DNA of 64,000 nt from Prochlorococcus sp. AG-402-C09 (GTDB lineage: Bacteria > Cyanobacteriota > Cyanobacteriia > PCC-6307 > Cyanobiaceae): positions 1 to 64,000 of the forward strand of contig QCHN01000004.1 in the NCBI GenBank assembly GCA_003279565.1. The letters are read 5' to 3'. Shown here piece by piece: positions 52,890-55,042 of this stretch. Both the position numbers and the translations under genes were made by a program. Below the pieces are notes generated by a model. The model saw only the letters and a program-made list of their open reading frames with translations, ran no database searches and was not told where the DNA came from. Position 1 is the first letter of the stretch. Each line of letters opens with the position of its first letter.

Positions 52890-53315
52890 GTGAGTGAAGA
52901 CAACAAAACAAAATCAAATCCTTTGGAAGATTTGAATCCTGATGAAAAACAAAATCAAGTTATTTCATTTGAACCAAAAAGCTCAATCGAGGAAGTTGAT
53001 CCCAAATTAAATCGCTTCGAGTGCATTAGCTGTGGTTTTATTTATGATCCTGATGAGGGCATAAAAAAGCTAAATATTGAACCAGGAACGGCATTCTTAG
53101 ACATCGATAGAGAGAAGTTTAGATGTCCTGTCTGTCGAGTAGGATTTGGTGGATATAAGGATATTGGACCTAAATCAAAGCCTAGTGGATTTGAAGAAAA
53201 CCTTACTTATGGCTTTGGATTTAATAAACTTCCTTCAGGCCAGAAAAACGTTCTTATTTTTGGAAGCCTGGCTTTAGCCGCTGCCTGTTTTCTCTCTCTT
53301 TATTCTTTGAAATGA
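52890..53315 (+). CDS. rubA: Membrane-anchored rubredoxin (RubA)
   Basis: A cyanobacterial RubA needed for photosystem assembly. From the GTG at 52890 it has 141 residues (the frame is open to a TTG at 52866). An acidic N-terminal arm is followed by the rubredoxin fold with four iron-binding cysteines ([14 protein letters not shown] and [11 protein letters not shown]). The protein ends in a single membrane helix. Its stop overlaps the ycf48 start by 4 bases. The rubA-ycf48-psbE-psbL-psbJ order groups photosystem II assembly factors with cytochrome b559. Confidence 0.9.
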
Positions 53316-54328
53316 AACGCCTGTTTTCAAATGTCATTAATTTGACTCTTGTCTTTATAGTTGGTGTAGTTCTTACTGGTTGTACTGTTAGCAATGCTTC
53401 CATGGGCTCATCAAGTCCGTGGTCAATAGTTGACCTCGATACTGAGGCAAATCCATTAGATGCTGACTTTGTCGATGATAAAAATGGGTTTTTAGTTGGT
53501 ACAAATAGGCTGATTCTTGAAACAAACGATGGTGGTATTACTTGGAAAGAAAGAAATTTGGATATTCCAAGCGAAGGTAACTTTCGTTTAATAAGTGTCG
53601 ATTTTAAAGGGCAAGAAGGTTGGATTGCAGGTCAGCCAGGATTGATTCTTCATACAACTGATGGAGGTAAAAATTGGACCCGTCTCGATTTGGGAAATAA
53701 GTTGCCTGGAGATCCATATTTGATAACAACAATTGATATTGATTCTGCTGAGTTGGCAACTACGGCTGGAGCAATTTATAAAACAACTGATGCTGGTATA
53801 AATTGGGAAGCTATAGTTGTTGATACTTCAGGCTCTGGAGGGATCAGAGAATTAAGACGGACAAATAACGGTGGTTATATAAGTGTAAGTAGTCTTGGCA
53901 ATTTTTTCTCAGTTTTAAGCCCAGGAGAGGAGATATGGAGCCCCCATCAAAGAGCAAGTAGTAAAAGAGTCCAAAGTGTGGGTGAACAGCCAAATGGAGA
54001 TTTATGGATGCTTTCTAGAGGAGCTGAAATCAGATTTAACTCAGATCCTAATGATATTGACTCCTGGTCCAAGCCCATTATCCCAATCGTGAATGGCTAT
54101 AACTATCAAGATCTTGTTTGGGATCCATCTAAATCGATTTGGGCCGCTGGAGGAAATGGAACTTTATTAGTTAGCAATGATGATGGAAAAACTTGGGAAA
54201 AAGATCCTGTTGGTGAATCTGTTCCAACAAACTTCATCAGAATTTTGTTCGTGGACAATTCTAATAGTGACATTCCTAAGGGATTTGTATTCGGAGAAAG
54301 GGGCAATTTATTGCGATGGCAGGGTTGA
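53312..54328 (+). CDS. ycf48: Photosystem II assembly protein Ycf48 (HCF136)
   Basis: Ycf48 is a lumenal seven-bladed beta-propeller that binds early photosystem II intermediates and pre-D1. The 338-residue product has a lipoprotein signal ([15 protein letters not shown], cysteine about residue 24). BNR-type blades follow, with repeated DGGxTW motifs: [42 protein letters not shown]. It overlaps rubA by 4 bases and is followed by psbE after 107 bases. Confidence 0.95.
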
Positions 54329-54435: not shown

Positions 54436-54684
54436 ATGGCTGCCGGCTCTACCGGGGAACGCCCGTTTTTTGAGATCATTACTAGTGTCCGCTATTGGAT
54501 CATCCATGCGGTTGCACTTCCTGCGATCTTCGTGGCAGGATTCCTATTTGTGTCTTCTGGGCTTGCCTACGACGCTTTTGGAACTCCTAGACCAGATACG
54601 TATTTTCAGGCTGGAGAAAGCAAAGCTCCTGTTGTAGTTCAGCGCTTTGATTCCAAGGCTGAACTTGACACGCGTCTGAAATAA
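54436..54684 (+). CDS. psbE: Cytochrome b559 subunit alpha
   Basis: PsbE supplies one of the two heme-ligating histidines of cytochrome b559 in photosystem II. The complete 82-residue product has [20 protein letters not shown] with the ligand His, [18 protein letters not shown], and the normal C-terminus ([10 protein letters not shown]). The partner subunit PsbF, normally encoded directly downstream, is absent here; psbL follows after only 29 bases. Confidence 0.95.
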
Positions 54685-54713
54685 CCAAATTTCATCTGAT
54701 TGCTTTTTTATCC

Positions 54714-54833
54714 ATGCAAGTCAATCCAAATCCAAATAAAGTTCCGGTCGAATTAAACCGAACAAGTCTTTATCTTGGACTCTTACTTGTTTTTGTAATG
54801 GGAATTCTTTTTTCCAGTTACTTCTTTAACTAA
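54714..54833 (+). CDS. psbL: Photosystem II protein L
   Basis: A 39-residue single-span protein, [20 protein letters not shown] then [19 protein letters not shown], identical in layout to PsbL. It stabilises the photosystem II dimer and Q(A) binding. It lies 29 bases after psbE and 11 bases before psbJ. It is too short for ordinary ORF thresholds. Confidence 0.95.
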
Positions 54834-54844
54834 ATCTCTTTATC

Positions 54845-55042
54845 ATGAGCAAATTAAAAGGACCTGATGGGCGAGTAGGAGATCGTCTACCAGATGGTAG
54901 GCCTGCAATCTCCTGGGAAAGACGGTGGACAGAGGGAGCACTTCCTTTATGGTTAGTAGCTACTGCAGGTGGAACAGCTGTTATTTTTGTTCTTGGTATT
55001 TTCTTCTACGGTTCATACACTGGTATTGGTAACGCTGGTTAG
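54845..55042 (+). CDS. psbJ: Photosystem II protein J
   Basis: A 65-residue PsbJ, with [20 protein letters not shown], then [13 protein letters not shown]. PsbJ is a single-span subunit near the quinone exchange channel. The soluble N-terminal part ([20 protein letters not shown]) is the longer form seen in picocyanobacteria. It is the last gene of the cluster and is followed by a terminator. Confidence 0.95.

Follow-up and report, generated by a model that had tools for sequence, protein, structure and literature searches.

Cytochrome b559, in which one His from each of two subunits, PsbE (alpha) and PsbF (beta), ligates the heme, is described as essential to photosystem II (PSII); whether that heme plays any physiological redox role is a matter without consensus (excerpt of PMC12661325). 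Canonical PsbF (TIGR01333, PF00283) is encoded by a short gene of about 40-50 codons in the psbEFLJ operon, and its axial His lies in an FTVRW-x-x-x-H helix. A longer relative is already named in NCBIfam, under NF002717 ('cytochrome b559 subunit beta, long form') and NF002720; these names, however, are silent on a lost ligand His, on a PsbY-like N-terminal part and on the absence of psbF in LLI Prochlorococcus. In PDB 7ymi, which we take to be the PSII-Pcb complex of Acaryochloris marina, chain F (99 residues, 'Photosystem II protein Y') unites PsbF with a PsbY-like part, and both parts match the long form; unlike the long form, however, this chain has the reverse order (PsbF first) and keeps the His, and its PsbY match is weak, at 9.4 bits. 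Ligand changes have been engineered in the laboratory. In the H23A alpha mutant of T. elongatus one axial His is replaced and PSII with apo-b559 works, and the b559 mutants of Synechocystis and Chlamydomonas were mostly harmful (excerpt of PMC9214863), whereas the change in Prochlorococcus described below is natural and conserved over many species. No report of a natural loss of a b559 heme ligand was found in the titles and abstracts searched, a coverage outside which most subscription journals lie, and such a loss is seemingly unreported.

The window analysed here is a stretch of 64,000 nucleotides (contig QCHN01000004.1, positions 1 to 64,000) from Prochlorococcus sp. AG-402-C09, a draft genome of 34 contigs that is 88.7% complete. 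Its cytochrome b559 locus is composed as follows:

53312..54328, forward strand: ycf48 (PSII assembly factor), next to the operon on its upstream side (PF14870, 439.5 bits)
54436..54684, forward strand: psbE, cytochrome b559 alpha (PF00283, PF00284, TIGR01332)
54490-54492, forward strand: Arg19 of psbE, kept (residue comparison)
54505-54507, forward strand: heme His24 of psbE, kept (residue comparison)
54514-54516, forward strand: Ala27 of psbE (His+3), Thr in most relatives (residue comparison)
54685..54713, no strand: 29-base gap between psbE and psbL, the position of psbF in relatives (sequence and locus comparison)
54714..54833, forward strand: psbL (PF02419, 82 bits)
54845..55042, forward strand: psbJ (PF01788)

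While psbE, psbL and psbJ are intact, the ORFs listed for the 29-base gap include no PsbF-coding frame. These coordinates confirm the sequence-only reading of this DNA, according to which psbE is complete, psbL begins 29 bases further on and psbF is absent from the operon. That reading had also seen no PsbF elsewhere in the window, and had proposed a translated search of the whole genome. When a six-frame search with PF00283 was run, psbE (59.2 bits) was found within the window; a second match above the cut-off lay on another contig (C5:117951-118019, 38.2 bits), and one more was at chance level (12.7 bits). The second match belongs to a single PsbF-like gene:

G000:C5:117774-118067 (L002:1324-1617), forward strand, outside the window: long-form gene, 97 codons (PF00283, TIGR01333, NF002717)

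The C-terminal end of its product reads [39 protein letters not shown]; its second half is a PsbF in which the ligand His has become Asn, and its first half is PsbY-like. It is a member of the NF002717 family (183.5 bits, cut-off 153), stays under the cut-off of NF002720 (108.7, cut-off 127), and scores above those of the PsbF model TIGR01333 (65.1 bits, cut-off 61.15) and of PF00283 (36.1 bits, cut-off 30). The PsbF chains of solved PSII structures align to residues 55-92 of the long form without gaps in three alignments, with Asn71 facing the His and Thr67 facing the Trp. The two proteins share a homologous helix with FTVR and the Arg, but the long form differs from canonical PsbF in having Asn for His and Thr for Trp, in its long N-terminal part, and in its locus, which is not the psbEFLJ operon. 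An intact psbF that had merely moved, one of the ways out left by the sequence-only reading, is therefore ruled out, as what lies elsewhere is a paralogue whose N-terminus is PsbY-like and which has Asn in place of the ligand His. That reading was right, on the other hand, that the absence of psbF bears on the heme; the sole PsbF-like gene encodes Asn, and in the window's genus the heme site has a His from the alpha side only.

The window's genus is taken here to be LLI, and we likewise take genomes G032, G069, G136, G313 and G207 to be NATL2A, SS120, MIT9211, MIT9515 and MED4, respectively. An assembly or sequencing artefact, with psbF really present in the operon, might be suspected of a draft such as the window's genome. 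However, among the 37 genomes of the genus (its own included), psbE was found in 31 and canonical psbF in none, and the long form scored above the PF00283 cut-off in 26. Canonical psbF is likewise missing from G002, G010, G019, G025, G032 and G033, six of these genomes that each consist of one contig and are 99-100% complete. A comparison of the psbE-psbL spacing between close strains had also been proposed, and all 19 of the 19 loci read in the genus have a gap of 27 or 29 bases. Because the absence is genus-wide, extends to six complete chromosomes and comes with such a uniform gap, an assembly deletion is ruled out as its cause, and we consider the chance of any artefact to be negligible.

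Outside the genus, the gap measures 34 bases in MIT1223 (L084), 33 bases in AG-435-K18 (L206), and 2 bases in AG-409-J19 (L171, genome G097), where psbF is absent; in 78 of the 80 loci L139-L218, those with psbF, it spans 141-221 bases. MIT1223 (G062, LLVIII), the only representative of genus g27 as to the state of psbF, has the Asn form and no canonical psbF, and the AG-409-J19 draft, which is 84% complete, yielded neither psbF nor, by profile, the long form. Sole dependence on the Asn form is known just for MIT1223 and for the window's genus (LLI, to which NATL2A belongs). Of the eight other genera with the long form, six (g34, g63, g41, g77, g40 and g58) also showed canonical psbF with its His, and in the drafts of g37 and g60 the psbEFLJ operon is missing. 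Since psbL is absent as well in 7 of 10 genomes checked (G027, G034, G072, G095, G118, G151 and G308), the operon is hidden by draft gaps in these seven, which are uninformative on psbF. A tree of rpoB alone placed g1, the window's genus, and g27 on separate branches. With rpoB and rpoC2 combined they were sisters (support 62.6/69) within a group that also holds HL and LLII/III genomes (99.8/100); a quick tree did not group them, and enforcing the grouping raised its likelihood by 7.8. It is possible that psbF was lost once, or twice. Whatever the number, the drastic effect expected of such a loss is not seen in viability, as both NATL2A (excerpt of PMC6517427) and MIT1223 (excerpt of PMC11559063) are cultured strains.

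The replacement of the ligand is not peculiar to genomes without psbF. A profile built from 16 long forms (A1) and searched against 400 genomes of the family found 101 long-form genes in 100 genomes and in 10 of 59 genera, and Asn occupies the ligand site in all 100 genes in which this site is readable, the gene of G028 meeting a contig end before it. A reading of 59 loci used a pattern that itself required Asn, which all 59 matched, and the count of Asn was redone with any residue allowed: Asn was again present in 99 of 99 genes, encoded by AAT in 82 and AAC in 17, with the Trp kept in one of them (G072) and Thr in the other 98. The 45 distinct DNAs from the 59 loci all encode the same amino acid at 20 of 30 positions, with differing codons at 19 of those 20, which points to selection on the long-form protein; its PsbF half is, in fact, nearly invariant over the ten genera. 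A general pseudogene is rejected on the same ground of synonymous turnover with the protein kept. One copy, that of G269 (L392), has the Asn but goes out of frame directly behind the helix's FF, through either damage to the gene or an error in the draft. A stop near the end of the model is included in at least four of the matches, from HL or other genomes. Carriage by phages was also rejected, as a viral scan gave 53 pattern matches and no relative among them. As to expression, a 'PsbF-like protein' of MIT9312 changed in transcript level (excerpt of PMC6517427), and PSBF_PROMA was detected in SS120 (excerpt of PMC5451487), a protein that could be either of the two that SS120 encodes. One genome of g41, G397, carries two different long forms (C1:1104907-1105197 and C1:1464008-1464298; L375 and L376), both with Asn.

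On the alpha side, PsbE reads [12 protein letters not shown] in 22 of 22 psbF-less loci, 19 of which come from the window's genus. The heme His is kept, as is the Arg in the loci read, and Ala occupies position His+3 in all 22, a residue that the same comparison showed there in 0 of 90 loci with psbF; the 22 loci, however, represent few lineages. By helix geometry, the residue at +3 would point toward the heme side. One locus outside this count, L018, combines Ala at +3 with the presence of psbF, in a helix that is otherwise different.

The first half of the long form was compared with PsbY. A Pfam scan of the protein of the window's genome gave no PsbY family at E <= 1, and matches to PF06298 within the long-form ORFs of G118, G308 and G125 were under threshold (13.5-15.6 bits). 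With a profile built from 20 PsbY proteins (two of 22 PsbY loci were left out, being missed by the motif), 20 of 28 distinct N-terminal parts scored higher (up to 17.8) than any of 1120 shuffles (at most 7.4), the other eight scoring 1.7-7.3. Alignment of the N-terminal part with PsbY by hhalign gave 94.5%, which for so short a helix is supportive rather than proof. An unfused PsbY-like piece in MIT1307 scores 22.5 bits with the Pfam PsbY model, whose cut-off is 24. A PsbY above the Pfam cut-off was present in 22 of 33 genomes tested, and no separate one was found in seven of seven genomes of the window's genus, nor in G062, G118, G085 and G111. Of these, G085 has psbF, no long form and no PsbY match, which indicates that PsbY can be absent without the fusion being there. 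In two genomes of g41, G207 and G076 (L131, L133), a second small PsbY-like protein, under the Pfam cut-off, lies next to the separate PsbY.

Two genes that appear, by look, to encode membrane proteins accompany the long form:

L002:1777-2298: X, with two similar RF..IW..P segments
L002:696-1133: Y, with a WHT..MFP motif

Neither X nor Y matched Pfam or NCBIfam at E <= 1. In a set of 32 genomes, each was present in 15 of the 17 with the long form; among the 15 without it, X was found in 6, in some as fragments, and Y in 3. A pentapeptide-repeat gene adjoins the long form in g37 and g58, a similar-looking one adjoins the unfused piece of MIT1307, and none was seen in g1. At L336 (G253:C4:19500-23000), X and Y are present and the long form is neither between nor beside them, an arrangement which suggests that the long form can be lost alone from its locus.

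Taken together, these comparisons of genes and residues lead us to favour, with a probability of roughly 0.6, the reading that in LLI and MIT1223 a PsbY-PsbF fusion takes the places of psbF and psbY beside PsbE, leaving a cytochrome b559 that is either one-His or heme-free. Canonical psbF is gone from these genomes and a separate psbY was not found. The fusion, encoded elsewhere, would fill the positions of both PsbF and PsbY in PSII, and its PsbF helix would offer the heme site an Asn in place of the His, so that the heme might be held by the single His of PsbE or be missing from a purely structural b559. A one-His heme seems to us somewhat more likely than none, because PsbE keeps its His and Arg without psbF, and because PsbF keeps its His in genomes where PsbE carries Gln, as described below. 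PsbY adjoins PsbE and PsbF in PSII (excerpt of PMC4823308), and Arabidopsis without PsbY has b559 in the low-potential form only (excerpt of PMC9214863); the fusion would link PsbF to a protein required for the high-potential form in that plant. Against this proposal, the ligand mutants of Synechocystis and Chlamydomonas were mostly without PSII accumulation (excerpt of PMC9214863). Moreover, most genera with the fusion also have canonical psbF, and the original role of the fusion would therefore have been a different one. Also at odds with the proposal are AG-409-J19, in which neither psbF nor a long form was found, L018, where Ala at +3 and psbF occur together, and G085, which has psbF but neither PsbY match nor long form.

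This coexistence, seen in six genera, also speaks for an antenna- or assembly-linked long form that is not the b559 beta subunit at all, in which case PSII of LLI would work without PsbF, with PsbE alone or as an alpha-alpha dimer supplying two His. The PsbE His kept in all psbF-less loci would fit such a dimer, and the neighbourhood would fit an antenna or assembly role: in LLI it contains X and Y, with a flavodoxin gene following, and the gene between X and Y in MIT1307 encodes a CP43/Pcb-family protein of 354 residues (PF00421, 150 bits). We nevertheless hold this to be unlikely: dependence on the two-part protein alone goes together with the loss of psbF and the absence of any separate psbY, and the near-invariance of the PsbF half across ten genera is what one would expect if it occupied the same packing site. 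It is far less probable still that another protein, for instance Y, provides the second heme ligand. In LLI, MIT1223 and some HL genomes the gene for Y sits next to the long form, and the WHT..MFP motif of Y, His included, is invariant in four of four aligned sequences. But Y is also encoded by 3 of the 15 genomes tested that lack the long form, as well as by genomes whose PsbF is normal; G324 and G095, which do have the long form, are without Y; and nothing puts it near PsbE.

If abundant wild cyanobacteria do live with a half-dismantled heme site, bis-His ligation would not be required in nature. The cultured natural variants NATL2A, MIT1223 and MIT1307 and their bis-His relatives MIT1300, MIT1341 and MED4 would allow a direct test.

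In other lineages, of the LLVII grade, a one-His site would have arisen from the opposite side. In MIT1307 (G111), G060 and G080, PsbE has Gln for the heme His and PsbF keeps its His, so that only the beta His is present in genomes of this type, whereas both His are kept in MIT1300 and MIT1341 (G116 and G090), also of the LLVII grade. The pattern of PsbE with Gln was found in 14 of the 400 family genomes and in 10 of the 59 genera, none of them g1, and in 9 of 80 named loci (80 kept of 306), all from Prochlorococcus single cells. Among 158 distinct PsbE DNAs, 13 encode Gln and 145 His at the heme site, and five positions before it the 13 with Gln have Lys (12) or Asp (1), while all 145 others have Arg. 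A single clade of the Gln variants is absent from the tree, and constraining it lowered the likelihood by 12.4 log units; with a p-AU of 0.371, however, a single origin is not rejected and is compatible with the data. Extending the argument to both subunits, we tentatively propose, at somewhat less than even odds, that Prochlorococcus gave up bis-His ligation of b559 at least twice, once per subunit, each time with an amide in place of His (Asn in beta, Gln in alpha) and with the other half-site kept. The product would be a one-His heme with the amide facing the sixth position, which might bind O2 or superoxide and not just pass electrons on, or else the cytochrome would be dispensable as a heme protein in dim deep water; that the amides of Asn and Gln could hydrogen-bond a small ligand is speculation. 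The PsbE Gln variant of the LLVII grade may merit a separate finding, and the loci in which it was seen, from MIT1307 and single cells, are L134:654-902, L135:515-763, L136:666-914, L139-L146 and L157.
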